NCBI GenBank assembly: GCA_963205275.1
Contig: CAUJIH010000017.1
Span: 1-32,717, forward strand
Length of the DNA: 32,717 bases
From: Verrucomicrobiota bacterium
GTDB taxonomy: Bacteria > Verrucomicrobiota > Verrucomicrobiia > Verrucomicrobiales > DEV007
Direction: 5' to 3'
The translations under genes were made by a program, and so were the position numbers. The notes beneath the pieces are model-generated. The model saw only the letters and a program-made list of their open reading frames with translations. It had not been told where the DNA came from and did not search any database. Shown piece by piece: positions 1 to 23,361 of the stretch. How positions within the stretch are numbered: position 1 is the first letter of the stretch; every line of letters begins with the position of its first letter.

Positions 1-3000
1 CCCTGTGATGGAGATCGCTCCATTGCGTGTCCCGCTGGTGCTGCGCCCCCCATGTCCGATCTGTGCATAGGCACTGGTGCCAGTCGAACCATTCAGAATC
101 ACATCACCCGGTTGGCAGAAGGAAATCGTGATCGTAGCGGAGGCAGTCGTATTCCCGGTGCTTGAACCAATTCCGCCGTGACCAATCTGGGTATACCCGC
201 TCGCCAGACTACCAGAGTTCAGAGTGAGTCCGCCAGTAGAAAGCCCGATTCGGATGGCTCCGCTCGCATCGCCACTACCGTCTCCATAAAATCCAAGCTG
301 GGTCCCGGAATTCGCTGTCGTTGTACTCGCGTTCAAAGTGAGACCATAACCTGCGAGCATCGTCAGTCCCTGTCGACTACCCACTCGAACAGCGCGAACT
401 TGATTTGCGTATCCAATGGTCACTGCCTTGTTTCCAATGCCGAAGTCACCGCAGCCATCATAGCCGGTGGTACCGTTCAGAACGAGATTAGAATTCCCGT
501 AATCCGTTCCGCTCGCTCCGTAGGTAACACCCCAATTGCTGGAACTTCCTGATCCACTCCAGCCTTTCCAGCCAGCGACCAAGATCACGTTGCCATCGGC
601 ATTATTCTGGTAGCCGCGATTCACGGTGAGATTTCCACCGGTTAAGATGGCTAGATCATTTCCAGAACCCGCATCGACCTGCGTGCCCGCATTGAGAGTA
701 ATATCGATGTCATTGTTCAACGTGAGACGAATGGGGCCATTCCCATAATTGGCGTTCGCCAGCGTATTGACCCCAGTAGTGCCTCCCAGAGCGGTATCCT
801 CAATATTTGTCGCACCATTCGCTACGATCTGATAACCGACAGAGTTTGGCCCTGCCGTATAAGTCCCAGGAACATTTCCAGAACTGACATGCGCGATTCT
901 GGCATAAGTTCCCGTAGCCTCGATGTTTCCGTCGGCAAAAACTCGCAATCCACCAGACAGGCTGCTCACGGCCGTAGCCGTCGCCCCGTGCCCAATTATC
1001 GCCGGGCTGTGATTACTGGTCGTTGCTGCATCTAAGGTGATATTACCTCCGCGGGCTGCGATGACGGTAACATTACCGGCCGCGGATCCTGCTCCCCCAC
1101 TCACCCCGTGCCCAATTTGAGCGAAACGTGATGTATTTCCTCCACTCGGCGAAATCAGAGAAACGCCTCCCTGAGTCAGCAAACCCGACACCACAGTGAT
1201 ATCACCACTTCGGTCCGATGCATGATTCCGCCCACCGTGACCGATCATCGCATACGTCCCGGTCGCGTCTTTTGAGGTCACAGTCACCTTCCCTCCCAAG
1301 AGCACAGTAATATCGTCCTTAAGAACATCAGGCGTTGAACTGACACTTCCAAAGCCCCCTCCATGCCCAATCTGCACATAGGCGTTCCCTCCGATGCCAG
1401 CAAGAAGATCGAGGGAAGAACCGGCGGTGACGTTCAGTGCCCCACTGGCCGAACCGAGGGAGTCCACTCCGCCGTGCCCGATCTGGGCGTACGCTGCCGA
1501 ACCTGAATTTCCGGTGAGCGAAATCGCTCCAGCTACATCGACGGTGATCGCGTCACTTTTCGTTCCAGCAATATTGTTTCCACCGTGCCCGATCTGGGCG
1601 CTCGTCATGGTTCCTGTCCCGCCACTCATGCTTAGGTTTCCTCCATGAATCGTAACGCCAACGGTTCCGCTCATGGTGCTCGCCCCCGTATTCGAGCTGG
1701 TATCCCCACGGTTCGCGTGCCCGATCACTGCGTAGGCATAACTTCCCCCTCCTCCTGTCATCGAAATCCCGCCATTTTTCACATCGACTGACGTATTACC
1801 TGTCACGGTTGTATTGTTAATGAAATAATGTCCACTCCCTAGCATCGCTCCCGAGCTAGCGCCGGAACCACCCTGAAGAGTAATTCCATCGTTCGCGCTT
1901 AGACCTTTCGCGAATAAGGACACATTTCCGGAAATCGCATAATCCGCGTTATAGGAGCCATTCCCAATCTGAGCATTCGCCCGCCCACCTGTTCCACCTT
2001 GAACCAGAACGCCCCCCACCCCAGCATGAACAAGAATCTCTCCAGACGAAGTTCCCGACATGGCGAGACCACCGTTACCAATCTGAGCATAACCATTTGA
2101 ACCTCCTCCGGCAGTTAGGGAAACCTTGCCGAGAGTATTGGTCACAGAAATGTTCCCCGAAGCGTTCCCGTTACCCCATGTACTGGTAACTCCGGCCCCG
2201 CCGTGTCCGATCTGGGCATAACTATTCCCGTTCGCTTCGACATTGTTTCCAAAACCTCCACCCGTCAAAGTCACATGATCTGCCTGATCGATGGTGATCG
2301 AACCACTTTTGGCACCCTTCCAATTATTTCCCCCATGCCCGATTTGGGCATAAGCATGAGAAGCGGACGTACTAGCGCTGAGGTTTACATCACCATCCAT
2401 TCCAGTCGAGAATTTGATGTCGATAGCCGCCGCCAAGGATACTCCAGTCGCCGTAGCCCCCGTGCCCCCATGCCCGACCTGAGCAAAGGCTCCGGTTTGA
2501 TTTCCTGCTGTAAGATTCAGTCCGCCTCCTTTCAGTTGAGCCGAGATACTTCCACTGATGGTGCCCGCAGCCGTCGGACGATAACCAAGCTGTGCAAATG
2601 CGTCGCTAGCCGCCCCTCCACTCACATTCAGAGCGTAGGCCGCCATTCGCGTGGCTCCGCCCGCACTCCCCACAGCAATCCCTGTCGTCTGACTCCCGCT
2701 CCCCACATAGATGCTGCTATTGCCGTTACCATAGGAAGAAACGTTCGTGATAAAATTCTGGAAGTTGACGCTTCCCGGTTGATTGAGACCAGTGATTCCA
2801 GAAAATCCGGTGGTTCCGTCCCACCCGGCGACGGCGTTGATCGCTCCCGCTCCGGCATTCTGGACCGAGGCGTTGAAGCGAATATCTCGATTCACCAGCA
2901 GTGTTAGGGCATTCGCGCTGGAGTAAGTCACTGCATTGTTCACCGTCAGATCCCCGGCTTCGGCACCTCCTGACTGCGTCGATACGACGACATTCCCTCC

Positions 3001-4497
3001 CGACAGAGCAGTCGTCAGTGTCGTGACATTGATATTGTTCGATGAGTTCGCAGCAGAACTGATCGTCAAATTCGTCGGGTCTAGCAGCAGTGTTCCCGCC
3101 TGCCCATTTGCGGACAGGGTCGAAACACTACCATCGTAGAGCAGGCTCCCCTTGCCAGAGACCTCCACAAAGCCGCCGTTACCGATTTGACCTGTAGCCT
3201 CGGCAGAAACGTTCCCTTGGAAGTTCGTGCCTCCATCCGACCAGAGAATCACCGTGCCGGCCTGTCCGTTGGTCCCGTCTGCGTGGATTTGCGAACCAGA
3301 TTCCACCGCCAGTGTTTCTGAATTCACTATCGAGCGATCCTTCCCCTGAAAACCGCCCCCGATGCGGACCGTTCCACCTTCGGCTCCTCTCGCATTGATG
3401 CGGCCCGTTGAATCCACAGAGATTTCTGAACCTTCCACCACCACAGTACCACCCTTGCCGCTTGCGTTCACCACATCGATTGAGCCACCCAGTTCCACCC
3501 GATCCGTACCAGTCACGCGCACATCGCCACCCTGTGCTTGAAGTCGTCCATCGACTCGCGCGTACGCTGCCTCGATCACTATTCGACCAGCATTCACTGG
3601 ATCCGAGCTCGTCGCCTTGATCGATCCGCTATTCTCGACCGCTCCGCCCGCTCCACGCAGATAGACCTTTCCTCCCTCATTCACCGCTCCGGTCGCTCGG
3701 ATCGAACCCTTATTATTGATCGCTAGGGCATATACGTTCCCGTGGGCTTTCAGTTCCACAGCCGCTCCTTCAATTGTCCCGTCGTTTTCGATCCCTGTGC
3801 TGCCGCTCCCTCCCTTCGGACGCACGAACATGCGCTCGCCATCGGCTCCCTCGTGCGCTGTCAGCAACACTTCCTGCCCTGCCGCCAAGCCCACTCGACC
3901 GCTACTGGCACTGATACTACCGCGATTACTGACGGTCTGACCGATCAGGAAAACATCGCCTCCGATGGCGTTAATTCTCCCCATGTTGGTAACCCCACCA
4001 TTGCCCGAGCCTTTGAATGTCATGTCTCCCCCAGCAAGAAACTCACCATTGCTGACATCTAGGGTCGAGAGCACCAGTCCGTGAACATCGATGGTTCCGC
4101 TCGGCCCGACCAAGATTCCGTTCGGATTGATCACGAACACATTTCCGTTCGCTTTCAGCGCTCCGTGAATCGCGCTCGGGTCTCCGCCTGTGACGCGATT
4201 CAAGACTGAGGAATTTGCCCCCGGCTGTCGGAACTGCGTCAATTCACCTGCGTCAATGGAGAATTTGTCCCAGTGAATGATGGCGTTCTGGCTATTTTGC
4301 AGAATCTGCAAATTCCCAGCGCCGCCGTTGAAGCGAACATCACCATGGACCACCACGCTGCCCTGCGGATTCGCCATCAGGGTGTCATTGTACTGCATCA
4401 GCCCAGGAAAAAGGCTGAACATCATCAGATGGAGGATGTATCGACGACGACGCACGCGAGCAAGGACGCCGGCGGATTCGATAGAATTAAATTTCAT
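1..4497 (-). CDS. TPS-type filamentous haemagglutinin-like exoprotein, 3' end outside window
   Basis: The reading frame stays open from an ATG at 4497 to the window edge, giving 1499 residues without a stop. Residues 1-42 resemble a long signal peptide: a basic RVRRRR stretch, a hydrophobic segment, then a likely cut after LMA. Residues 43 to about 250 match the two-partner-secretion domain, with the NPNG hallmark at 124-127 and an LNRVTGG segment just before it. TPS exoproteins cross the outer membrane through a TpsB pore and fold as a beta-helix; no TpsB gene is in the window. An LDPTNLTI segment near residue 471 marks the start of a second region, in which the motif AQIGHGG and variants recur about every 37-45 residues. 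Gly, Ser, Thr and Asn dominate. It is probably a surface or secreted adhesin, but its ligand is unknown. There is no clear ribosome binding site. The neighbour upstream is dnaN, so context says nothing about function. Confidence 0.9.
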   Translation of the reverse strand, partial: MKFNSIESAGVLARVRRRRYILHLMMFSLFPGLMQYNDTLMANPQGSVVVHGDVRFNGGAGNLQILQNSQNAIIHWDKFSIDAGELTQFRQPGANSSVLNRVTGGDPSAIHGALKANGNVFVINPNGILVGPSGTIDVHGLVLSTLDVSNGEFLAGGDMTFKGSGNGGVTNMGRINAIGGDVFLIGQTVSNRGSISASSGRVGLAAGQEVLLTAHEGADGERMFVRPKGGSGSTGIENDGTIEGAAVELKAHGNVYALAINNKGSIRATGAVNEGGKVYLRGAGGAVENSGSIKATSSDPVNAGRIVIEAAYARVDGRLQAQGGDVRVTGTDRVELGGSIDVVNASGKGGTVVVEGSEISVDSTGRINARGAEGGTVRIGGGFQGKDRSIVNSETLAVESGSQIHADGTNGQAGTVILWSDGGTNFQGNVSAEATGQIGNGGFVEVSGKGSLLYDGSVSTLSANGQAGTLLLDPTNLTISSAANSSNNINVTTLTTALSGGNVVVSTQSGGAEAGDLTVNNAVTYSSANALTLLVNRDIRFNASVQNAGAGAINAVAGWDGTTGFSGITGLNQPGSVNFQNFITNVSSYGNGNSSIYVGSGSQTTGIAVGSAGGATRMAAYALNVSGGAASDAFAQLGYRPTAAGTISGSISAQLKGGGLNLTAGNQTGAFAQVGHGGTGATATGVSLAAAIDIKFSTGMDGDVNLSASTSASHAYAQIGHGGNNWKGAKSGSITIDQADHVTLTGGGFGNNVEANGNSYAQIGHGGAGVTSTWGNGNASGNISVTNTLGKVSLTAGGGSNGYAQIGNGGLAMSGTSSGEILVHAGVGGVLVQGGTGGRANAQIGNGSYNADYAISGNVSLFAKGLSANDGITLQGGSGASSGAMLGSGHYFINNTTVTGNTSVDVKNGGISMTGGGGSYAYAVIGHANRGDTSSNTGASTMSGTVGVTIHGGNLSMSGGTGTMTSAQIGHGGNNIAGTKSDAITVDVAGAISLTGNSGSAAYAQIGHGGVDSLGSASGALNVTAGSSLDLLAGIGGNAYVQIGHGGGFGSVSSTPDVLKDDITVLLGGKVTVTSKDATGTYAMIGHGGRNHASDRSGDITVVSGLLTQGGVSLISPSGGNTSRFAQIGHGVSGGAGSAAGNVTVIAARGGNITLDAATTSNHSPAIIGHGATATAVSSLSGGLRVFADGNIEATGTYARIAHVSSGNVPGTYTAGPNSVGYQIVANGATNIEDTALGGTTGVNTLANANYGNGPIRLTLNNDIDITLNAGTQVDAGSGNDLAILTGGNLTVNRGYQNNADGNVILVAGWKGWSGSGSSSNWGVTYGASGTDYGNSNLVLNGTTGYDGCGDFGIGNKAVTIGYANQVRAVRVGSRQGLTMLAGYGLTLNASTTTANSGTQLGFYGDGSGDASGAIRIGLSTGGLTLNSGSLASGYTQIGHGGIGSSTGNTTASATITISFCQPGDVILNGSTGTSAYAQIGHGGRSTSGTRNGAISITG
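46..2595 (-). repeat. Protein-coding repeat array, AQIGHGG motif
   Basis: The 21-bp core coding for AQIGHGG or a close variant is seen at 46-66, 172-192, 982-1002, 1102-1122, 1231-1251, 1357-1377, 1468-1488, 1579-1599, 1711-1731, 1954-1974, 2068-2088, 2197-2217, 2329-2349, 2464-2484 and 2575-2595. A worn copy lies at 1825-1848, another near 283-303, and an outlier at 3172-3192. Between 982 and 2595 the start-to-start distance is 111-135 bp, always a multiple of three. Variants include AIIGHGA, AMIGHGG, AVIGHAN, AQIGNGG and AQLGYRP. DNA between cores is diverged, so selection seems to act on the protein motif rather than on recent duplication. Confidence 0.9.
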
Positions 4498-4610
4498 TTT
4501 TGACAAAAGTGACGTCTGCGCGCTTCTGTATCGCCACTCACACGAGAGATGTCTGAAAGCACGAGTCCAATGGGATATTGCTCCCAGAGACTACAACGTG
4601 ACAAGGAAAT

Positions 4611-4695: not shown

Positions 4696-5793
4696 TCACC
4701 GAGTCGCTCGCATCGGCATCATGACGTACAGGAATGGCTCGTCGATTTTGATAACCCCTGGACTACTTGTATCGATGAGATCGATATAGACCTCATCCTG
4801 ATCCAAGTTCCGAAGAGGTGCGATCACAAACTCGGGATTGAACGCCATCACCATACGCGGACCGGTGTAGCGAATGTCGATGGTTTCCTCCGCTTCACCG
4901 ATTTCCGGAGAAGTCGTGCAAATCGTCAGTTGGTTGTTGTCGAAGATGAAATTGACGGAATTTGTCGACTCATCCACCAAGAGATTCATCCGTCGTAGAG
5001 TGCCCAACAGAACCTCTCTCTCGACGATCACTCGATAATTCGCCGGTCCAGGGATCACTTGACGAAAGTTCGGGTAGTTTCCTTCGATCAGCTTTGTCAC
5101 GAGCACGCTTCCGTTCAGATCGAAACTCGCTTGATTATCGGAAATGACTACCTTGACGTCTCCTTTAATGTCGAGCTGGCGCTGTAATTCATTTACTGCC
5201 TTCGTCGGGATAATGACAGAGACCTCCTGACCGGCAGGAAACTCAAGATCCTGTTCTACCATCGCAAGGCGACGTCCGTCCGTAGCCACTAGAGTCAGCA
5301 TTCCATCACGGATGACGCAGTTCACTCCATTCAGCACGTAACGCGTCTCATCGGTGGAAATCGCGTACGATGTCTTCCGCAGCGCATCGCGCAAGAGTTT
5401 CTGATCGATCGTGAACTCTCGGGGATTGCGAAACTCGCCGACGTGGGGAAAGTCGAATGGTGGAAGACCGAGAATTTTGAAGATACTAGCACCGCTCTGT
5501 AGGGTCGCCACGCTATCCGCAGAGACATCAAACTCCACATCAGATGCTGGCAATTCGCGCACGATTCCCGCAAGCCGTCGAGCTGGCAAAGTAATCGCCC
5601 CTGGCTGCACAACATTCGCAGCGACGATCTTCGAAACTGTGACGTCGAGATCAGTGGTCGAAAGTTCCAGCCCTCCCTCGCTAGCCTCAATCAGCACGTT
5701 CGAAAGAATAGGGAGGGGGGAGCGACTGGCGACGACATGCTGCACCTGATTCAGAGCATTTTGAAATGCGTCTCTCTCAATCTGAAATTTCAT
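4696..5793 (-). CDS. dnaN: DNA polymerase III beta subunit (sliding clamp)
   Basis: This 365-residue protein has the usual length of the bacterial clamp, which encircles DNA as a dimer and holds polymerase III on the template. The N-terminus MKFQIERDAF followed by RSPLPILSNVLIEA is typical, and the C-terminus ends FLYVMMPMR, matching the family's final strand (usually YVLMPMR). The frame continues upstream to a GTG at 5826, but the ATG at 5793 gives the family N-terminus and is preferred. It starts 42 bp after the dnaA stop on the same strand, the normal dnaA-dnaN arrangement, and is probably cotranscribed with it. Downstream, recF and gyrB are not found; the exoprotein gene follows instead. 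Confidence 0.97.
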   Translation of the reverse strand: MKFQIERDAFQNALNQVQHVVASRSPLPILSNVLIEASEGGLELSTTDLDVTVSKIVAANVVQPGAITLPARRLAGIVRELPASDVEFDVSADSVATLQSGASIFKILGLPPFDFPHVGEFRNPREFTIDQKLLRDALRKTSYAISTDETRYVLNGVNCVIRDGMLTLVATDGRRLAMVEQDLEFPAGQEVSVIIPTKAVNELQRQLDIKGDVKVVISDNQASFDLNGSVLVTKLIEGNYPNFRQVIPGPANYRVIVEREVLLGTLRRMNLLVDESTNSVNFIFDNNQLTICTTSPEIGEAEETIDIRYTGPRMVMAFNPEFVIAPLRNLDQDEVYIDLIDTSSPGVIKIDEPFLYVMMPMRATR

Positions 5794-5835
5794 TGTTTCC
5801 GAAACCTCGAGTTTGGACCGAACCACTCGATCTGT

Positions 5836-7383
5836 CTATTTGAATCTTTTCCTGTTCTTAAGGTTTGGCTCGGCTTGACCGAGATTCTGGGAGGACCTGA
5901 CATCCCGAATCGCTTTTCCTTGGCGTATCCGCGCTGCGTCGCCTGAGCCCGTACACCGGATCAAACGTCGCTTGATCAATTCAACAGAACTCTTGAATGC
6001 CCCAGAATCCTGCATACGCTTTTTGATCTTTTTCACTGCATAAATCACAGTGCCATGATCCTTTCCGAAGGCACGCGCCGTTTCGACCAGCGACCAATCG
6101 GTCAGATCGCGCACGAGAAACATCGCCACCTGACGAGCTTCGGCGATGCGAGCCGTCCTCTTCTTTCCATCGATCACGGCAATCTCGATATCGTAATGCT
6201 CGGCGACTGCTGCTTTGATCTCTTCGGCTCCAATATTGCGCGTTTCACTGTCGTCGCAGATATCCGCCAACAGTTCGGCAATTTCCGGAATCGACAGAGC
6301 TTTCTCATTCATCGTCGCCGACATCGAGACGCGAATCAGAGCGCCCTCCAATGCCCGGACGTTTCCGTGCACTCGACTGACGATATAATCGATCGATTCA
6401 TCATCGACCGCCATCTTCCAGTCGTCACGCTTCTTTCGCAGAATCGCAGCCCGTGTCTCGAGTCCAGGCCGGTGGATTTCCGCAGCAAGCCCCCATTGAA
6501 ATCGAGTGACCAGTCGCTCTTCTAACTGGGTAATTTCCGAAGCAGGGCAGTCACTAGCCAAGACGATCTGCTTTCTCGTATCGCTCAGGCGATTAAAGGT
6601 ATGAAAGAATTCATTCTGCAGGCCCTCTTTGCCGCCAAAGAACTGGACATCATCGATCATCAACAGATCCGCCTCCCGAAAGCGCTTGCGAAACGCTCCC
6701 AGAGTCTGCTTCTGAATCGCATCAATGTAATCGTTCGCAAACTGTTCAGCAGTCACAATCAAAATTTTAGACTTCGGGCGCTGTCGCAGAGACTCCCATC
6801 CTATAGCATTCAGCAGATGCGTCTTTCCCAAACCACTGGCAGAATGGAAGAACAAGGGTTGATACGTCTTGCCAGGTTGATCGGCAACGGCCCTAGCAGC
6901 AGCGTACGCCAATTCGCTGTTCTCTCCAGGAACAAACGTATCAAAACGGTAGCTACCCATAAGTCCGACGGCGTGTCCCTTCTCTAACAGCTCCCGCTCA
7001 CTCAGACCACCAACGCGAATCTCAAGATCCTTTGCATCATCTGATGGCAACGCCTCAGTCGATTCGTCGCTCGACGTCGAAGGGCCTTCACTCGACTCGT
7101 CGATACGAAATAGAATCTTATCACATCCCCCGAGATAGCGGGTAAACGTGGAAATTAATGAGTTTTTAAAATTCTCTTCAATCCAGATCATGTACATCGA
7201 CCCTGGAACGATTAGAATAATTTCATCCCGGGTGGCCGAAGCCAACTTCGTCTCCGCAAACCAGAGATCAAAATTCGCCTCTCCCAACTGTTCACGAAGA
7301 CTGGCAGTCACTCGGGACCAGAGCTCCTGAGAGGACAAGTCAGGAGCGTTTTGATTGGAGTCGTACGGTGAGGAACTGTGCAT
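5836..7383 (-). CDS. dnaA: Chromosomal replication initiator protein DnaA
   Basis: DnaA binds origin DNA boxes and opens the duplex. With the ATG at 7383 the protein has 515 residues. Domain I (SSQELWSRV...) covers roughly 17-95, an acidic Ser-rich linker 96-125, the AAA+ domain about 145-350 and the DNA-binding domain IV about 375-475, where GKDHGTV at 440-446 is the signature loop. Walker B is LLMIDD at 240-245. The P-loop reads SASGLGKT (181-188), so the usual first glycine is serine. After the normal family end near residue 476 there is an extra basic tail of about 39 residues rich in Arg and Lys, running almost to dnaN. A TTG at 7479 would add 32 hydrophobic residues unlike DnaA, so the ATG was chosen. 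No good ribosome binding site precedes it. Confidence 0.96.
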   Translation of the reverse strand: MHSSSPYDSNQNAPDLSSQELWSRVTASLREQLGEANFDLWFAETKLASATRDEIILIVPGSMYMIWIEENFKNSLISTFTRYLGGCDKILFRIDESSEGPSTSSDESTEALPSDDAKDLEIRVGGLSERELLEKGHAVGLMGSYRFDTFVPGENSELAYAAARAVADQPGKTYQPLFFHSASGLGKTHLLNAIGWESLRQRPKSKILIVTAEQFANDYIDAIQKQTLGAFRKRFREADLLMIDDVQFFGGKEGLQNEFFHTFNRLSDTRKQIVLASDCPASEITQLEERLVTRFQWGLAAEIHRPGLETRAAILRKKRDDWKMAVDDESIDYIVSRVHGNVRALEGALIRVSMSATMNEKALSIPEIAELLADICDDSETRNIGAEEIKAAVAEHYDIEIAVIDGKKRTARIAEARQVAMFLVRDLTDWSLVETARAFGKDHGTVIYAVKKIKKRMQDSGAFKSSVELIKRRLIRCTGSGDAARIRQGKAIRDVRSSQNLGQAEPNLKNRKRFK

Positions 7384-8268
7384 TCTCAGGGAGGCGAAGC
7401 CTGGTAAAAGAGTTGGAGAGTTAAAATAGAAAAATGAAAATAGAACAAAGGTAGGTTCACACGACAGTCTATTACTCAAATACTAGCAGAAGCGTTCAAA
7501 GTGGTGTGGAATTACTATCAGATTGAGAGACACCGATTCCTTAAGAGGTTCCGATCAGAATCCAGCGTCATTCAATATAATACTCTGAATACTCGTTGGA
7601 ATCATTTTCGGCCCTTTCGCAGGCGGCTCACTCGGGACGCTTATCGTGACACTCACCCTTCAATCCGACAACCGAAATTACTTCCTTTTTTCCGTATCAG
7701 CGAGACCGACACCCTCGAAATGCGGTTCTATCAGGGTTCGGAGCATAAGATGTAATTTTTAGAATTCTATTATTACAGACTTCTGTATTTTAAAATTTTA
7801 CAAACTATCGGAACTAAAATCAGCAATCGAAATGGGCGGGATACTCGATGAACTGGTTGAGGCAGCATCGTAAAGCAGCCCATGCAAAAGGTAACAGCAC
7901 GCGATCAACTCTTCTTCTCTCGATTTCAACACGTACCTGTAAGACCGGATACCTCAGAAAGGAACCCACCTGTCAGAACTCCTCGTAACTCCCGAGCCAA
8001 AAAGACTACGCCGTCCTTATAGGGAAGCATGGTAGTTAGCGGAGCACTCGATAATCGGCTCTACGACAGGCAGCGACACCTAGGAGTCAGAAATTGACAA
8101 CACCTTGAATCCAGAGCGGCTTCAAGACCAGATAGCTGCTCTTTCCCGAAGTGATCGCAAGCCTGTCGACTCCTCATTATTTCCTAGAAACGATGAAGCA
8201 CTCTGAAATTGTCGCTGTCCTCAGACAGCATTTTCAGCTATAGTGCCGCCTTTCGCCTAGAGCGCCAA
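7384..8268. other. 885-bp stretch between atpC and dnaA, no credible gene
   Basis: No reading frame here has a recognisable protein or ribosome binding site. I scanned both strands for DnaA boxes (TTATNCACA) and found no exact copy, so an origin cannot be claimed, although position beside dnaA makes one possible. A strongly AT-rich island lies at about 7747-7803, including TTTTAAAATTTTA and a small hairpin with TACAG/CTGTA arms (7774-7787). The dnaA promoter should lie near 7400-7500 on the minus strand; a weak candidate is TTGAAC, 17 bp, AGTAAT (about 7469-7497). No tRNA or known structured RNA was recognised. Confidence 0.6.
8214..8229 (-). terminator. Candidate terminator hairpin after atpC
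   Basis: Six-bp arms GCTGTC (8214-8219) and GACAGC (8224-8229) enclose a 4-base loop, about 40 bp past the atpC stop. The following minus-strand bases, GACAATTTCAG, contain few Ts, so termination would be weak. Confidence 0.4.
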
Positions 8269-8670
8269 TCACAGTTGCCGACGTTTTCTTTTCACGTGGA
8301 GCTGTGCGAGCGATTTCTGCAACGCAAGACTCGCCGCTGCGATATCCTCAGGTAGAGCCTTCTCCGACATCGCCTTCCGAGCATTTTCTATTGCTTGCTC
8401 GACTGCTGATTCATCGATTTCACCCACTCCGAGCGCCATATCAGTAACGACAGAGACGCGATCATTGGAAACCTCAACAAACCCCGTGCCAATCGCAAGG
8501 GATGTCGCCTCCCCCTTCTGTAGGAAGTGTAACTCCCCAGGGCGCAATGCAGATACAATAGGTGCGTGAGCTGGCAAAATTCCCATCTCACCCTCTGAAC
8601 CAGGTACCACGACACTGTCAATTTCATCAGAAAAGACAAGTTTTTCAGGTGTTACGATCTCGAGTCGCAT
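8269..8670 (-). CDS. atpC: F1F0 ATP synthase epsilon subunit
   Basis: The 133 residues match the epsilon subunit, part of the central stalk that couples rotation to catalysis and can inhibit ATP hydrolysis. The N-terminal beta-sandwich is recognised from MRLEIVTPEKLVFSDEI, VVVPGSEGEMGILPAHAP and the later FVEVSNDRVSVVTDMA. A C-terminal helical hairpin of normal size follows (about residues 85-133). It is the last gene of the operon, 53 bp after atpD. The ATG at 8670 gives the family start. Confidence 0.97.
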   Translation of the reverse strand: MRLEIVTPEKLVFSDEIDSVVVPGSEGEMGILPAHAPIVSALRPGELHFLQKGEATSLAIGTGFVEVSNDRVSVVTDMALGVGEIDESAVEQAIENARKAMSEKALPEDIAAASLALQKSLAQLHVKRKRRQL

Positions 8671-8723
8671 GGGAAAATAGGTTCAGTGAGATGAAATGTG
8701 GTGTGCAAAACTCGGAGGGAATG

Positions 8724-11097
<2,374 letters not shown>

Positions 11098-11129
11098 AGC
11101 GATTCAGAAAAGAGATCGTTCGATAAAAA

Positions 11130-12665
11130 TCAGGCTTTATAGGTAGACTTGAAGTCTTCGATCGCCTGCTTGAGTTCGGAGACGATGCCATCGTTGAGTT
11201 GTTTCTCTTCGCGGATCTTCGTCAACACAGAAGCCTTACGAGTCGATAGGAACTCTTCCATCTTCTTTTGAAAATCCTTGATTCGATTCACCGGGATTGC
11301 ATCAAAGTGACCATTCTGCATCGCCCAAAGAAGAGCAACTTCAAGCTCCATCGGCAGGGGCGAGTATTGCGTTTGCTTAAACAGCTCAACAATTCGCTGT
11401 CCGCGCTCGATTTGTCCCTTTGTCTTCTCATCAAGATCCGATCCGAACTGAGCGAACGCTTGAAGCTCACGGAACTGGGCTAAGTCAAGCTTGGTGGTTC
11501 CAGACACCTTCTTCACTGCCTTCGTCTGCGCAGCGGAACCCACTCGACTCACCGAGAGACCGACCGAAATCGCCGGACGAATCCCCTGATAAAAGAGGTC
11601 CGTTTCCAGATAGATCTGCCCATCAGTGATCGAGATCACGTTTGTCGGAATGTACGCGGAAACGTCACCCGCTTGCGTTTCAATGATCGGAAGAGCCGTC
11701 AGCGAACCTCCACCATTCGCCTCATTTAGACGAGCTGCACGCTCGAGCAGGCGGCTATGCAAATAGAAAACGTCACCGGGGTATGCCTCACGTCCCGAAG
11801 GGCGGCGGAGCACCAGAGAAACCTGACGATAGGCAACTGCGTGCTTGGAGAGGTCATCATACACGATCAGTGCGTCCATACCGTTCGCCATGAACCACTC
11901 ACCCATCGCAGCGCCAGCATAGGGTGCCAAGTATTGATTGGTCGCAGAATCCGAAGCTGAGGCAACGACGACGATGGTGTAATCCATCGCACCTTCAGCC
12001 TCGAGCGTCGCAATCGTCCGTGCTACGTTTGCCAGCTTCTGCCCGATCGCGACATAGATGCAGTAGAGTGGCTTGTGATCTTTCAGTGCACCTTCCTCAG
12101 CCGCACGATTTTGGCGAGCCTGCGAAATAATCGTGTCCACAGCTACGGTTGTTTTTCCAGTGGAACGGTCTCCGATGATCAACTCCCGCTGACCACGTCC
12201 AATCGGAATCATCGCATCAATGGCGAGAATCCCCGTCTGAACCGGCACCGAAACCGACTGCCGCGGAATAATTCCGGGAGCAATTTTCTCGACCGGATAG
12301 GTCACATTTGTCTGAATCGCTCCCTTCCCATCAATCGCCTGACCGAGCGCATCGACTACGCGTCCCAGCATCTCCTTTCCGACGGGTACCGAGAGCAGTC
12401 GTCCGGTGGAACGAACCTCATCTCCTTCCTTTACATGCAGCGCATCACCAAGCAAAATACAACCGACCTCGGTTTCTTCCAAGTTCAACGCCAGGCCATA
12501 AAGCCCGCCGGGAAACTCGATCATTTCATTCAGCATGACATCGCTCAGGCCTTCGACCTTGGCGACTCCGTCACCGATTTCTCGCACGATCCCTACGTTC
12601 GACTTGGTTACGGAGGTTCGCAAGGCGGCGATTTCGGATTCCAATTCCTGGAGAATATTGCTCAT
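11130..12665 (-). CDS. atpA: F1F0 ATP synthase alpha subunit
   Basis: The 511-residue non-catalytic nucleotide-binding subunit alternates with beta in the F1 head. The P-loop is GDRSTGKT (165-172), preceded by a typical beta-barrel region ([16 protein letters not shown]). The arginine-finger region [10 protein letters not shown] is intact, so it should complete the beta catalytic site. The N-terminal helix ELESEIAAL would contact the delta subunit. It begins 38 bp after atpH. Confidence 0.98.
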
Positions 12666-12703
12666 ACGCTAGCGTCTAGTAAAATTAGAGAGTGAATTGA
12701 GGT

Positions 12704-13099
12704 TCAACTGAATTTTTCGGAGAGTCTCTCCAGTCTATTTTTGATACTGCCATCCCACACATCACTTCCGATGCGGACTTTCATACCGCCCAGCAGTGCC
12801 TGATTTGTGGTAAATTCAGGGCTTATTTGCGCTCCGTATTTTTTTCTCAGATCGGCAGTGATCTGGCTTTTTACGGGTTCATCCAACGAAGCAAAACTCT
12901 CGACGATCGCCCGATTCTCTTGCACCTCCAAGCGGATCAATCGCATGTAGGCATCCAGCAAAGCCTGATAGCCTCGCGGCTTCAATTGAGAGAACTTCGC
13001 GATAATTTGTTTCGCCACTCCGACATCCACTCCACGATCCGTCATCGTAGCGACAAAAAGCTTTTTAGCAATGCGCTGAACTTCTTTTCGTGACTTCAT
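12704..13099 (-). CDS. atpH: F1F0 ATP synthase delta subunit, short form
   Basis: At 131 residues this is well below the usual 175-185. The C-terminal signature GGMKVRIGSDVWDGSIKNRL (about 104-123) identifies the family. The segment before it (RLIRLEVQENRAIVES) matches the normal second half. The missing residues are in the N-terminal helical domain that binds the tip of alpha. The upstream frame reaches a stop at 13121-13123 without another start, so the shortness is not due to a wrong start. Delta joins F1 to the peripheral stalk b subunits. It lies between atpF and atpA as expected. Confidence 0.9.
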   Translation of the reverse strand: MKSRKEVQRIAKKLFVATMTDRGVDVGVAKQIIAKFSQLKPRGYQALLDAYMRLIRLEVQENRAIVESFASLDEPVKSQITADLRKKYGAQISPEFTTNQALLGGMKVRIGSDVWDGSIKNRLERLSEKFS

Positions 13100-13140
13100 A
13101 CAGGGAGCGGAGTAGAGAAATTAAGATTCCTTAGGTGAAT

Positions 13141-13641
13141 TCAGAGAGCGATCTGACTCGTAGCCTCTTCGTTAATTCTGACTTGATCTTGATCATCGAG
13201 CACCTTGCCCGTCACTTTCGCCGTAGCATCGATCACCAAACGACCGAAATCGCGTTTCAGCTCACCCATGACACGCTCGTGCTCCAAGCGAGCACCGTCT
13301 CGAGCCTTTTCGAGAATTTGATTCGCCTCTTTGACAGCCTCTTGCGTCTTCTGAACACGCACAGCCTCCGCACTTTCCCGAGCCTCCACAATGAGACGCT
13401 CTGCATCAGCATTGGCACGGTCAAGAGTCGCACGGACATTTTCTTCGGCTTTATCCATCTCGGCCTTAATTGTCTCGAGATTGGACTCACCTTCAGCAAT
13501 ACGTCGCCGCCGAGCCTCCAATACACTGAGAACGGGACCAAATGCGTATTTAGAGAGGATGGTATAGACAAGCAGGACGATGATCACCTGGGCGATAAAC
13601 TTCGGCCAATCAAGTCCAAATGTTTCGAGTATTTCCGTCAT
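13141..13641 (-). CDS. atpF: F1F0 ATP synthase b subunit
   Basis: The 166-residue protein has one N-terminal membrane helix (about 14-34, FIAQVIIVLLVYTILSKYAF) and then a long charged helix rich in Ala, Glu, Lys and Arg, expected to form the dimeric right-handed coiled coil of the peripheral stalk. Only one b gene is present, so the stalk is probably a homodimer. It follows atpE after a 102-bp spacer carrying a GC-rich hairpin. Confidence 0.95.
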   Translation of the reverse strand: MTEILETFGLDWPKFIAQVIIVLLVYTILSKYAFGPVLSVLEARRRRIAEGESNLETIKAEMDKAEENVRATLDRANADAERLIVEARESAEAVRVQKTQEAVKEANQILEKARDGARLEHERVMGELKRDFGRLVIDATAKVTGKVLDDQDQVRINEEATSQIAL

Positions 13642-13664
13642 CGTCTTCGAAAATTAAGAGTCGA

Positions 13665-13680
13665 CCGGGGTCTCCCCCGG
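13665..13680 (-). promoter_or_regulatory. GC-rich hairpin between atpE and atpF
   Basis: Arms CCGGGG (13665-13670) and CCCCGG (13675-13680) enclose a 4-base loop. On the minus strand it lies 63 bp past the atpE stop and 23 bp before the atpF start, followed by TCGACTCTTAATTTT. It could protect the 3' end of an atpE message or reduce read-through into atpF, which would help supply many c subunits per complex. This role is inferred. Confidence 0.5.
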
Positions 13681-13743
13681 CTCATTAGTAAATACCCGAG
13701 AAACATCGCCGCCCAATGGATCGCGATTTCCCGGAGCACTCCA

Positions 13744-13980
13744 TCAGCCACGCAGAGCCATGATCAGCGCATAAATAGCAATAGCCTCGGCCAAAGCCAT
13801 AGCGATAATACCGATAGTCAGAATATTGCCGAAAGCACCCGGGTTGCGACCGACCGCCTGAGCGGAGGCCATACCGATCAAGCCGATACCGATACCGGCA
13901 CCAGCACCTGCAATCGCGAGGGCAAAATTCCCATTGAACGCGACTTCAGCGAGAACTTGGAGTGTAGTGAGATCAATCAT
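13744..13980 (-). CDS. atpE: F1F0 ATP synthase c subunit
   Basis: The 78-residue proteolipid has two membrane helices joined by the polar loop RNP (45-47). Helix 1 has the glycine-repeat packing motif (GAGAGIGIG, about 25-33). The ion-binding carboxylate is E65 in ALAEAIAIYAL. The glutamine and serine that mark sodium-binding c rings are replaced by isoleucine and alanine, which suggests proton coupling. Multiple copies form the rotor ring. It follows atpB by 77 bp. Confidence 0.97.
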   Translation of the reverse strand: MIDLTTLQVLAEVAFNGNFALAIAGAGAGIGIGLIGMASAQAVGRNPGAFGNILTIGIIAMALAEAIAIYALIMALRG

Positions 13981-14057
13981 GTTATTTTTCAGGGTATGTG
14001 TTGCTCATCAGCACCCGCGCTCAGAGACACGGTCATACTGACAAAATTGAGTTAAAA

Positions 14058-14954
14058 TCAATGATGCTCCGCATCCTCATGAGAGGTGGACAACTTGATG
14101 TATACGGCACACAGAAGTGCGAAAACAGTAGCTTGGAGCATTCCGACCAGAATCTCCATAAAATAAAAAGGAATCGGAAAGACAACGGAAGTCAAAAAGG
14201 CCGGAATTTTACCGAGTCCGAGAGCTGCCCCCAGACCACCCATCGTGTGAAGCAGCGTTTCCCCAGCAAAAATATTGCCCAGAAGCCGCAGAGAGAGCGA
14301 CAAAGGACGGAAAGCGATCGACAATACCTCAATCATACCAACCGCAAAGAAAATTGGCATAAGAGCGTATTTCAGGAAGCCTGTCAGCCCACCCTTGGGA
14401 CCAAAAATGTGAACCAGACTCCCCCAAACACCGAGTTCACTAACAGACAAATAAAGCCACACGATCATGAAAACTAGCGCCAGCGCTAGATTCATATTCA
14501 GATCAGCCGTCGCCGGACGCAGCAGCGGAGTGAAGGTCGCATGACCCTCCGCGTTCACAAAGGAGGAATCGACCGAAAGGAAGGCAAGCTTTTGCCCAAA
14601 TCCGACCGTTCCCACACCTGGGATCAAACCGAACCAGTTCGAAGCTAGGATGAAAATAAACAGTGTTGCCAATATCGGAAAGGCCTTCGGAGCGACTTTT
14701 TTTCCAACAATTCCCTCGACCTGCCCGTAGAGAAACTCGATTACGAACTCGACGAAGTTTTGCTTCGCATTCGGGATGAGCGACATCTTTTTGGTCGCAA
14801 CTCGCGTAAAAAGAAGAATTGCTGTCGTGACAACGGCTGCAACCAAGATCGAATTCGTCAGCCACCCGAAGTCGGGAAGACTCGGCGCACCGATTCCTCC
14901 AGATGCGAGGATCGGGAGTTTGGTTGCGAAAAATCCTGGAGTAAAGGGGGCCAT
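14058..14954 (-). CDS. atpB: F1F0 ATP synthase a subunit
   Basis: The 298-residue integral membrane protein forms the proton half-channels next to the c ring. The essential arginine is R223 in LSLSLRLLGNIFAGE. Several membrane segments are visible: about 32-50, 92-112, 155-175, 197-215 and the last 60 residues. A longer N-terminal segment (1-30) precedes the first helix. It is the first gene of the operon; no atpI was found upstream. Confidence 0.97.
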   Translation of the reverse strand: MAPFTPGFFATKLPILASGGIGAPSLPDFGWLTNSILVAAVVTTAILLFTRVATKKMSLIPNAKQNFVEFVIEFLYGQVEGIVGKKVAPKAFPILATLFIFILASNWFGLIPGVGTVGFGQKLAFLSVDSSFVNAEGHATFTPLLRPATADLNMNLALALVFMIVWLYLSVSELGVWGSLVHIFGPKGGLTGFLKYALMPIFFAVGMIEVLSIAFRPLSLSLRLLGNIFAGETLLHTMGGLGAALGLGKIPAFLTSVVFPIPFYFMEILVGMLQATVFALLCAVYIKLSTSHEDAEHH

Positions 14955-15023
14955 CGACTAAAAGATTAAAGCGAACGGTGCGCTGATTACGACGGAAAGT
15001 GGCATATTTCCGAAGGCGCGTGA

Positions 15024-19932: not shown

Positions 19933-22900
19933 ATGAAATTCTCGTCAATCTCACTTTCCCTCATTCTTTTCTTACTCACCTTTTCTCGCTCGTGGGCGAT
20001 TACTCCCGCTGAACTGGAGGCAAAATTCAAACAGCTTCCCACCGTCGCAGAAAAAGATTTGCCGACACTGAGCAATCAGAGAGGCTCTTTTCGTGGAGCG
20101 CTTCTGCACGACGGCCTAGAAGGACACACTTGGGTCTCTTTTCCCTTCATCGAGAATCCCGGCAGTCTTTGTTTTGACGCGAAGGGGGCGATGTATGTGG
20201 CCGAAGCCAATCGCTTCTGGCTGGGAGTACCGGACTTGCGAGGAGCCAACGAACTAATCCGCGACGACTTCCGGGCCGTGACTGTCGCAGACCGCTTGGC
20301 CATGTATCAAAAATACGCATCGAGTTTTCCTGAAGGCTGGTTCAGCCGGGTCGCAGATCGAGTGATTCGCCTAGAAGATCGCGATGGGAATGGGGCCCCA
20401 GATCATCGCACTCTGTTTTCGGATCGCTTTCATCGTCCCGAGGACGGCATCGGTTTTTCGCTGCTAGCTGATGGCGATGCGGTCTATTTCACCTGCATTC
20501 CCAGTGTCTGGAAACTGCGAGACAAGGATGGAGACGGAAGGGCAGACGAGGAAATAGAAATTTCGACTGGCTACGGCGTGCGGGTTTCCTTCATTGGACA
20601 CGACTTGCATGGAATCACGCGGGGGCCTGATGGACGGCTGTATTTTTCCGTGGGAGACCGAGGATTTCACGTAACGACAGCGGACGGGGTGACTCATGCG
20701 GGATCGGGGCGTGGAGCGATCTTTCGCTGTGAACTCGACGGCAGCGGATTAGAGGTTTTTGCCATCGGGCTACGCAACCCCCAAGAACTGGCTTTCGACG
20801 ATGAGGGCAATCTCTTCACCTTCGACAATACGGGAGACATCGGAGACAAGGCTCGTTTTGTGTATGTGCTGGAGGGCAGCGATTCGGGCTGGGATATGTC
20901 ACATCAGTCGGCTCACCACTACGCCACGCATCTCGACTGGGGAGACTTTCGCCCGGAGCAGTCGATGTGGGTAAAGGAGCGGATGTTCGATCTGTTTAAC
21001 GAGGATCAGCCTCAGTGGGTGTATCCTCCCGCCTCTCATGTCGGAGAAGGGCCATCAGGGGTGGTCTGGACGACGGGTGAATCGCTGCCAGCAGATCTGC
21101 GCAATCGCTTCCTAATGGCGAATTACCGAGGGGCGTCTGACAACTGTACAATTCTCTCGATCGAGCCAGAACGCAAGGGGGCGGGGTTCGTGGCAAAGGA
21201 GGTGAAGGAGCTCGTGAAGGGCGTCGGAGCGAGCGATGTTGATCTCGGCTACGACGGGAATCTCTATCTCTGCGACTTCGGAGGAGGCTGGAGCGTGAAT
21301 GAAAACGGCTCAATCCAAGTGCTGGTTCCGAAGGATGAAAAACAGCGCACCGCCGGAAAACAGGTGGCCGAGCTGTTCCGAGCAGGATTCGATCAGCGCG
21401 GAGTTGATGAATTACAAAATCTCCTGAACCATCCGGATCGGCGTGTCCGGCAGGCTGCTCAGTTTGCTCTGGTGGAACGCGGTGCGGAAGGAATCAAAGT
21501 TCTCAAAGAGATCGTCGCAAAGCCCGGCAATTCGATTCCTCGGCTTCACGCCCTGTGGGGACTCGGACAGGCGGCTCGTCGAGGAGAAGCAGTTTCCGAC
21601 ACTCTGCTGCCGCTGCTTCAAGACGGTGATGCGATCATTCGGAGCAATGCTGTTCGTGTCTTGGGAGATCTCCGCACGGAGGCGGCTCTGGTGCCACTAC
21701 GAGACGTGCTGGCAAAAGACGATTCTCTCGCCGTTCGCTCTTTGGCGGCCGTTGCCCTTGGACGGATCGCGAAATTGGGTGATACGACGACGATCAGCGC
21801 CCTTTTCTCCGCCGCCGTCGCCAATGGAGCTGAGAAAAAGGAAACTGACGTGGTTCTGCGTCATGCGATACTCTCGGGACTTTCGCTGATCGCCTCGGAA
21901 AACGATGCGGCGACAAAGATCAATTCAGCGTCTCGTGAAGAACGCCTGATGGCGGTGCTGCTATTGCGTCGAAAGGAAAGTCCCCTGCTCGAAAAATTTT
22001 TGGATGAGAGAGATCCGCTGATCCTGCGCGAAGTCATCCGTGCCATCTACGATACCGGTGCGGTGGATTCTTCAGCGGGCCAAGCGCTGGCGGCATTTCG
22101 TCGAGGTCTCGCTGAGCTACCCGAGGCCGTGCAGCGCCGCATTGTGGCGGCCAACTACCGAGTCGGCACACCGGAAAGTGCTCTGGCGATGTTGAGGCTC
22201 GCCGCAGACGCTTCTCTTACGCATCCGGTGAGGAAGGCCGCGCTCAATGGACTCCGAGAATGGTCTGCTGTGATCGATACTGATCCTGTGAAAGGCTGCT
22301 ATCGGCCGCAAGTCGTGAGAGATGGGCGCGATTTCGCTCGGATGGAATCGGTTCTCGGGAACGAGTTGCGGAAATTTCTCGCTCATTCCGAGGACTCGGA
22401 GCTGACGGCCTTGGCAACTGAATTCGCCACAGAGGCGAAAATCCCTCTCGATTCAGCGATTCTCTTTGCTCAGGCGAAAAATCCGAAGCTGGCTCCCAGT
22501 CTGCGCATCGCTGCCGTGGAAAGTCTGCTTTCAACGAAACCTCAGGGCACGGAGGAGTGTGTGTCGTCGCTGCTCGACGATTCGAGCGCTCACGTTCGAG
22601 CGGAGGCGATGAAAGCTGCCTTTGATCTCGGGTTGGCGGGAATCGCCGACAAAGCAGAGGCGACTCTCGCCAAAGATCCTCTGCCAGTCGCACGGGCTAC
22701 GATCGCAGGGTTGGTCAATGTGCAACCGGAGAAAATCGCCACTCTTTGGAAAGCCCGTGAGACAGGCCTCCGCAAAGGCCTCTGGCTTGACGCGTATTTG
22801 GCACTGGCAGCGAAAAGGCTTCCTGAAGTGGCCGATTTCCCGACTTCCACGAAGTCGGCGGTGCATCGTCTGGGATTGGAGGGAGGCGATCCTCTAGCGG

Positions 22901-23361
22901 GAGAAATCGTCTTTAAAAATCAGGGAGCCTGTCTCCAATGCCACAAAGTCGGAGGGGAGAATGGAGAAAAAGGCGGGGTACAAGGCCCCAGCCTACGCGA
23001 CGTCGGCAAGAGACTCACCCGTGAAAAAATTTTGGAATCGGTGATCGATCCCGGTGCCGAGATTGCGGCGGGTTACGGGATGACGACGATTGCCCTGAAA
23101 AGCGGTGATGCTGTCGTGGGGAGGGTCGCCTCTGAAAACGCTGCCCAGATCGAAGTGATCGCACCCGACGAGAGTCATCGCATGATCACACGCAGCGAAA
23201 TCACCTCCATCGCTCCCCCCGTATCGGCGATGCCGCCGATCGGCGAAACTCTGTCCCCGAGGGACTTTCGTGATCTGATCGCCTTCCTTGCCACACAGAA
23301 GGGAGGAAAATGGTCACGGGAGGAAGCAGCGCACGGCGACGGCGAAGAAATCGCGAAGTGA
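19933..23361 (+). CDS. PVC-type propeller/HEAT-repeat/cytochrome c secreted protein
   Basis: The protein has 1142 residues. Residues 1-22 form a signal peptide (ILFLLTFSRSWA). Residues about 60-460 form a sorbosone/glucose-dehydrogenase-like beta-propeller, with DRDGNGAPDHR and DKDGDGRADEE resembling calcium-binding loops, and GLRNPQELAFDDEGNLF. Residues about 470-930 are HEAT-like helical repeats (for example RRVRQAAQFALVERG, AIIRSNAVRVLGDL). The C-terminus carries one haem site CLQCH (1000-1004) and the family segment ILESVIDPGAEIAAGY. Such proteins are abundant in Verrucomicrobiota and Planctomycetota and are thought to oxidise sugars or other carbohydrates in the periplasm and pass electrons to the haem; the substrate here is unknown. 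It stands alone between the MBL-fold protein and the acylphosphatase, 98 bp after the former. Confidence 0.9.
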   Translation: MKFSSISLSLILFLLTFSRSWAITPAELEAKFKQLPTVAEKDLPTLSNQRGSFRGALLHDGLEGHTWVSFPFIENPGSLCFDAKGAMYVAEANRFWLGVPDLRGANELIRDDFRAVTVADRLAMYQKYASSFPEGWFSRVADRVIRLEDRDGNGAPDHRTLFSDRFHRPEDGIGFSLLADGDAVYFTCIPSVWKLRDKDGDGRADEEIEISTGYGVRVSFIGHDLHGITRGPDGRLYFSVGDRGFHVTTADGVTHAGSGRGAIFRCELDGSGLEVFAIGLRNPQELAFDDEGNLFTFDNTGDIGDKARFVYVLEGSDSGWDMSHQSAHHYATHLDWGDFRPEQSMWVKERMFDLFNEDQPQWVYPPASHVGEGPSGVVWTTGESLPADLRNRFLMANYRGASDNCTILSIEPERKGAGFVAKEVKELVKGVGASDVDLGYDGNLYLCDFGGGWSVNENGSIQVLVPKDEKQRTAGKQVAELFRAGFDQRGVDELQNLLNHPDRRVRQAAQFALVERGAEGIKVLKEIVAKPGNSIPRLHALWGLGQAARRGEAVSDTLLPLLQDGDAIIRSNAVRVLGDLRTEAALVPLRDVLAKDDSLAVRSLAAVALGRIAKLGDTTTISALFSAAVANGAEKKETDVVLRHAILSGLSLIASENDAATKINSASREERLMAVLLLRRKESPLLEKFLDERDPLILREVIRAIYDTGAVDSSAGQALAAFRRGLAELPEAVQRRIVAANYRVGTPESALAMLRLAADASLTHPVRKAALNGLREWSAVIDTDPVKGCYRPQVVRDGRDFARMESVLGNELRKFLAHSEDSELTALATEFATEAKIPLDSAILFAQAKNPKLAPSLRIAAVESLLSTKPQGTEECVSSLLDDSSAHVRAEAMKAAFDLGLAGIADKAEATLAKDPLPVARATIAGLVNVQPEKIATLWKARETGLRKGLWLDAYLALAAKRLPEVADFPTSTKSAVHRLGLEGGDPLAGEIVFKNQGACLQCHKVGGENGEKGGVQGPSLRDVGKRLTREKILESVIDPGAEIAAGYGMTTIALKSGDAVVGRVASENAAQIEVIAPDESHRMITRSEITSIAPPVSAMPPIGETLSPRDFRDLIAFLATQKGGKWSREEAAHGDGEEIAK

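Follow-up and report, generated by a model that had tools for sequence, protein, structure and literature searches.

Why would a giant exoprotein carry the same short motif, AQIGHGG, again and again along its chain, and on which side of the protein do the histidines of this motif lie? The motif runs through a gene at the edge of the window, i.e. the whole 32,717-nucleotide stretch of Verrucomicrobiales DNA analysed here (contig C17). An earlier note on this DNA had placed the motif on a beta-helix and had proposed that its histidines line up along one face and bind metal or a ligand. Our analysis leads to a different picture. The repeats probably build a TpsA beta-helix fibre in which each unit makes one coil, with a ladder of histidine or asparagine facing inward at the coil corner.

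Results

Gene and protein organization

The gene lies on the minus strand and extends from an ATG at 4497 to the contig edge at position 1, where the frame is still open (residues are counted from a TTG at 4506, so that M4 corresponds to 4497). It starts about 200 nt past the end of the dnaN frame (4696) and shares its direction with dnaA and dnaN. Its parts in the window are the following.

1..4497, minus strand: giant TpsA-type exoprotein gene, represented by its 5' part; the frame does not close before the contig edge (reading frame and 141-nt overlap with contig C61)
4372..4497, minus strand: putative signal-peptide region (MKFNSIESAGVLARVRRRRYILHLMMFSLFPGLMQYNDTLMA), judged from the sequence
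3616..4371, minus strand: TPS secretion domain, residues 46-297 (PF05860, E 2e-31; TIGR01901; PDB chains of EtpA, FHA and HxuA)
2611..3615, minus strand: putative leader beta-helix region (residues 298-632), free of the motif; the N-terminal part is found in further TpsA proteins as far as about residue 548
1612..2610, minus strand: repeat block 1, residues 633-965; units at 675, 720, 764, 807 (N) and 845 (N); worn units at 638, 887 and 926
895..1611, minus strand: repeat block 2, residues 966-1204; units at 970, 1007, 1044, 1086, 1129 and 1169, each one coil of the predicted model; worn unit at 1202
205..894, minus strand: spacer module, residues 1205-1434, with ordinary coils of about 22-38 aa (alignment; DSSP on the model), conserved better than the repeats
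1..204, minus strand: beginning of repeat block 3 (residues 1435-1502), with units at 1439 and 1481; the block extends onto C61

The assignment to TPS-type exoproteins made in the earlier note is borne out by the domain at residues 46-297, which matches PF05860 with an E-value of 2.1e-31 (110 bits against a cut-off of 33.5), TIGR01901, and PDB chains of EtpA, FHA and HxuA. Past this domain, a long right-handed beta-helix is predicted by AlphaFold2 models and by VIA matches to EtpA and HxuA. By its domain and its predicted fold, the protein is a TpsA member, and it is presumably secreted through a TpsB. The genome contains three TpsB genes (PF03865, on contigs C82, C96 and C34); none was seen beside the giant gene and the window holds none. 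The curated haemagglutinin repeat family Fil_haemagg (PF05594) is unmatched in the window protein and reaches one of 48 relatives at E 0.04.

The C-terminus, which the earlier note had proposed to locate in the full genome, was provisionally found on contig C61 of the same genome. The first 141 nt of the window exactly match the end of C61 in the correct frame, which runs on for 2,453 codons to a stop; the length of the overlap suggests an assembler k-mer. Joining C17 and C61 yields a protein of 3,908 aa with 55 units, which is provisional given a single k-mer-length overlap in a repetitive gene. The joined protein ends with a proline-rich linker followed by a C-terminal region that is common to paralogues and relatives. 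One series of seven unit spacings is seen twice (1481-1767 and 2242-2528), apparently because about 760 residues were duplicated in one piece. C92 (2,362 aa, N-terminal) and C64 (1,829 aa, C-terminal) carry the portions of a paralogue and likely belong to one gene, and two further TPS N-termini are located at the ends of contigs C3 and C80. No overlap was found between the ends of C92, C80 or C3 and those of C61, C64 or one another.

Two general doubts about the gene can be weighed here. Its frame leaves the contig edge and its sequence is repetitive, as might be expected from an assembly artefact or a decaying pseudogene. This is hardly credible given the stop-free frames of 1,502, 2,453, 2,362 and 1,829 codons on four contigs, the frames that stay intact over 6,371-8,899 codons in relatives and the strong purifying selection on the motif. 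Alternatively, the protein could serve as the rod of a toxin of the contact-dependent or polymorphic type, in which the repeats would be no more than a stick; CdiA proteins are likewise TPS exoproteins with long beta-helix rods. However, the C-terminal region is not polymorphic but recurs in paralogues and relatives, and its last 500 aa match nothing in Pfam or PADLOC; a CdiA-like toxin is unlikely.

As regards the surroundings, dnaA, dnaN and an ATP-synthase-like gene set adjoin the giant gene (4696-15000, minus strand; translations judged by eye). Further away, a plus-strand gene (19933-23361) encodes a 1,142-aa protein that combines DUF7133 and HEAT repeats with a cytochrome c-like end. Besides, the C92 protein (locus L022) displays, at residues 1052-1264, an unbroken series of units in which GAG replaces GHG, a natural His-less stretch that could be used as a control.

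A conserved repeat motif

The repeat is real and its motif is under selection. Between residues 620 and 1502, the pattern x-x-[ILV]-G-[HN]-G occurs 13 times, nine of them in the strict form [QM][ILV]GHGG. The 12 motif cores observed compare with 0.17 on average, and never more than 3, in 2,000 shuffles of the repeat region. The count of at least 15 clear copies in the earlier note was thus somewhat high: 13 are clear, and a total of about 18 is reached only with the worn copies at 638, 887, 926, 1202 and 1402. In the same vein, the proposed spacing of 37-45 residues holds between units within the blocks, but it is interrupted by breaks of 125 aa (with worn copies) and 270 aa (with a different spacer). 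The claim that the motif is kept while the DNA diverges was supported. Nine different 21-mers encode the nine strict copies. Moreover, in a 530-aa segment with a homologue in this genome, 3 of the 28 codons that changed within the motif are non-synonymous, versus 190 of 344 elsewhere (Fisher p = 4.5e-6).

No described function could be attached to the motif, as the earlier note had anticipated and as far as this can be checked. The repeat unit has no match among Pfam or NCBIfam families, and its profile gave chance-level matches only against PDB sequences, so that no characterised repeat family was matched in these three libraries. Similarly, a literature search retrieved no paper printing AQIGHGG and none on this family or on Verrucomicrobial TPS giants.

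The repeat is common in the genus of the host (Verrucomicrobiales) and sporadic in Gammaproteobacteria, Roseibium and Candidatus Theseobacter. Among 57 genomes searched as relatives, 25 match (own genome included), all but one (G053) from the own genus, and their frames reach 8,899 codons. In the named genome collection, the loci are mostly from Verrucomicrobiales, with additional ones in a Gammaproteobacterium (L094), a Roseibium (L109) and Candidatus Theseobacter exili (L107). The TpsA of the Gammaproteobacterial locus is complete (2,064 aa); its units read YAQLGHGG, and a TpsB comes directly after it. When 388 genomes were drawn evenly from the phylum, with few candidates scored per genome, the own genome alone was returned, which shows a patchy distribution and not an absence. 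A tblastn search of the repeats against plasmids and phages gave nothing, a result that the BLAST low-complexity filter may explain as it can hide such repeats. The longest runs of consecutive GHG units count 24 (G007), 22 (L094) and 21 (L058).

Predicted fold of the repeat unit

Two AlphaFold2 models were obtained, one for residues 955-1502 (48 aligned sequences; pLDDT 89.9, pTM 0.91) and one for 11 units of the Gammaproteobacterial array (28 sequences; pLDDT 95.2, pTM 0.92). Both are right-handed beta-helices with three strands per unit, in agreement with the beta-helix predicted in the earlier note. In the first model, each unit is composed of strand a (YAQI), a bridge just past GH, strand b (xIxVx) and strand c (xIxL), and the 270-residue break is filled by worn and ordinary coils with strands as in the units. 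The second model has the same strand layout; YAQIGHG forms one unbroken strand in its last three coils, and DSSP leaves the histidine outside the strand proper in 8 of 11 coils. Its best structural match in VIA is the TPS domain of EtpA (8cpk; Z 20.4, 255 residues, rmsd 3.2), while Foldseek gave no match at E <= 0.001 for either model. The 11 units of the second model also superpose on 3p4g (215 residues aligned, rmsd 2.6 A, chain 29-244), a structure made of 12 repeats of 19 residues (PMC6891781). At 19 residues per coil, the 216 residues of this segment amount to 11.4 coils for 11 units and therefore to one coil for each unit.

Coupling between neighbouring units

If units stack coil on coil, residues of the same column should depend on each other from one unit to the next. 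Within runs, coupling to the next unit (lag 1) is seen at Y/F(-1), I(2) and H/N(4), with z-scores against shuffled data of 8.0, 9.3 and 7.8, versus -0.5 to -0.2 at lag 2 for the same positions. Positions -2, 0 and 1 show no excess agreement with the next unit, and the identity of the flanks (25 residues past the motif) is no higher at lag 1 than at larger lags. With 800 non-redundant pairs, same-column coupling is found at core positions 2, 4, 17, 19, 25 and 27, also at 13 and more weakly elsewhere, and position 1 couples with position -1 of the next unit. The odds ratio for H/N in these pairs is 7.5 at lag 1 and 2.7 at lag 2. Predictions of one coil per unit reach z-scores of 3.9-15.8 compared with 0.6-6.9 for a two-coil alternation; all such values are inflated by shared descent, which the lag-2 and off-phase controls and the redundancy removal merely reduce, as the lag-2 odds ratio of 2.7 indicates. 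Moreover, as the units were chosen by the motif pattern, the invariance of their glycines is by construction. With these bounds, neighbour coupling supports one coil per unit independently of the models.

The number of coils and the direction of the histidine can now be considered together. The earlier note had remarked that the period is about twice that of a haemagglutinin coil, and each unit could indeed consist of two ordinary 19-residue FHA-like coils with the motif on every second one. A length of 37-38 residues is close to 2 x 19, and strands a and b are 18-19 residues apart. The likeness is numerical, but three strands per unit are present in both models, 11 units cover 11.4 coils of 3p4g, and same-strand coupling between neighbours is far above the coupling of a with b. 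On the basis of the models, the superposition and the coupling, the two-coil alternative was rejected as highly improbable, and each unit of 36-45 residues is predicted to be one long coil. Along a helix built in this way, the histidines do line up as the earlier note expected, one per unit and in register. If they were exposed in a row along one side of the helix and bound metal ions, haem or another ligand, this would account for this arrangement and for the fact that about half of all histidines in these proteins fall within the motif; besides, an LRR protein exposes a histidine/tyrosine ladder on its concave face (PMC9525666). Such a surface site is nevertheless unlikely. H4 has the phase of A0 and I2, which point inward, and covaries with residue 17 in the core of strand b (z 17.9), where isoleucine is the commonest partner of histidine, valine is more frequent with asparagine, and valine or threonine accompanies alanine. 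Although the letter at position 4 was left free, 2,677 of 3,471 matches have histidine, 404 asparagine and only 24 a charged residue, and a block of consecutive alanine copies is tolerated in C92. The phase, the covariation with residue 17 and the exchange for asparagine led us to reject the surface metal site.

In the reading that we favour instead, the motif most likely serves as the structural signature of a coil, and its histidines and asparagines form a ladder that faces inward. The inward, stacked orientation of the H4 side chain is deduced from its coupling to the next coil, its covariation with residue 17, its exchange for asparagine and the rarity of charged residues. It is doubtful that such a stack, with dozens of neighbouring buried histidines, has a function of its own, either as a pH- or metal-dependent zipper that would keep the chain unfolded until export and then lock the fibre, or as an internal metal-loaded row.

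Discussion

The reading of the protein as a TpsA fibre with one coil per unit suggests how it may be built. It would leave the cell by Sec and then through a TpsB pore, and fold outside into a long right-handed beta-helix fibre. Each coil would run from strand a, (Y/F)AQIGHG, through a conserved GxxxxGxxxG loop about 10-12 residues long to strand b (xIxVx) and then to strand c (xIxLxGG). A0 and I2 would be core residues and the glycines would form the bend, while H4, sometimes replaced by asparagine, would point inward from the corner where strand a meets the loop and stack on H4 of the next coil, which would help to hold the fibre together. In this way, the motif may hold each long coil in register. 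As a beta-helix rises by about 0.48 nm per coil, each unit would lengthen the fibre by one such step, and growth may have proceeded by copying of units and of whole modules of several hundred residues. The outer faces and the loops would be left for adhesive or matrix-forming activity, and the protein may act as an adhesin or a fibre.

The overall plan is that of known TpsA proteins such as FHA of Bordetella, EtpA of E. coli and HxuA of Haemophilus, which likewise have an N-terminal TPS domain and a right-handed three-sheet beta-helix, here predicted. The coils differ: a 19-residue motif is attributed to FHA in a reference given by PMC5422565, and EtpA has nine turns per 228-residue repeat (PMC10284417), whereas the coils predicted here have 36-45 residues and a fixed AQIGHGG strand. 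The size differs as well, as relatives of up to 8,899 aa are larger than the 100-650 kDa stated for TpsA proteins in a passage of PMC5422565. The inferred ladder is reminiscent of the asparagine ladder of beta-helix polysaccharide lyases such as the PL6 enzyme BcelPL6, in which a polar residue is stacked coil on coil at a turn on the hydrophobic side; asparagine is the main substitute in our repeats. The BcelPL6 ladder has 10 steps and was stated in 2019 to be the longest Asn ladder reported (PMC6879350), while the residue is usually histidine here and GHG runs extend over 21-24 units. The RTX ice-binding adhesin MpIBP (region IV, 3P4G) is similar in having one repeat per coil in a long solenoid of a giant surface protein, with a unit-for-coil superposition, but its 19-residue repeats bind calcium (PMC6891781), its sequence is different and it follows another export route. 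In the LRR protein Crov588, histidines are stacked repeat on repeat (PMC9525666), although its histidine/tyrosine ladder is on an exposed surface and in another fold.

As far as the Pfam, NCBIfam and PDB-sequence libraries searched show, this long-coil unit and the histidine ladder inferred for it form an uncurated variant. An uncatalogued repeat of giant exoproteins is thereby given a concrete predicted structure, one long beta-helix coil per unit. From a methodological point of view, coupling between neighbouring repeats can count the coils per repeat and suggest stacking residues without a structure. If the ladder is true, it would provide a testable design rule for long protein fibres.

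Two minor observations are worth recording. On contig C96 of the same genome (L054, 2-3762), the C-terminus of another TPS-type protein with MBG-like repeats has a TpsB gene directly after it, and its tail SGGGEEE resembles the tail SGGGEE of the giant protein. Finally, position 13 in the loop is H in 23%, K in 11% and L in 9% of units across relatives (e.g. in the L094 array, 6469-7668), with a next-unit MI z-score of 10.9, and may form a second stacked row in the loop.
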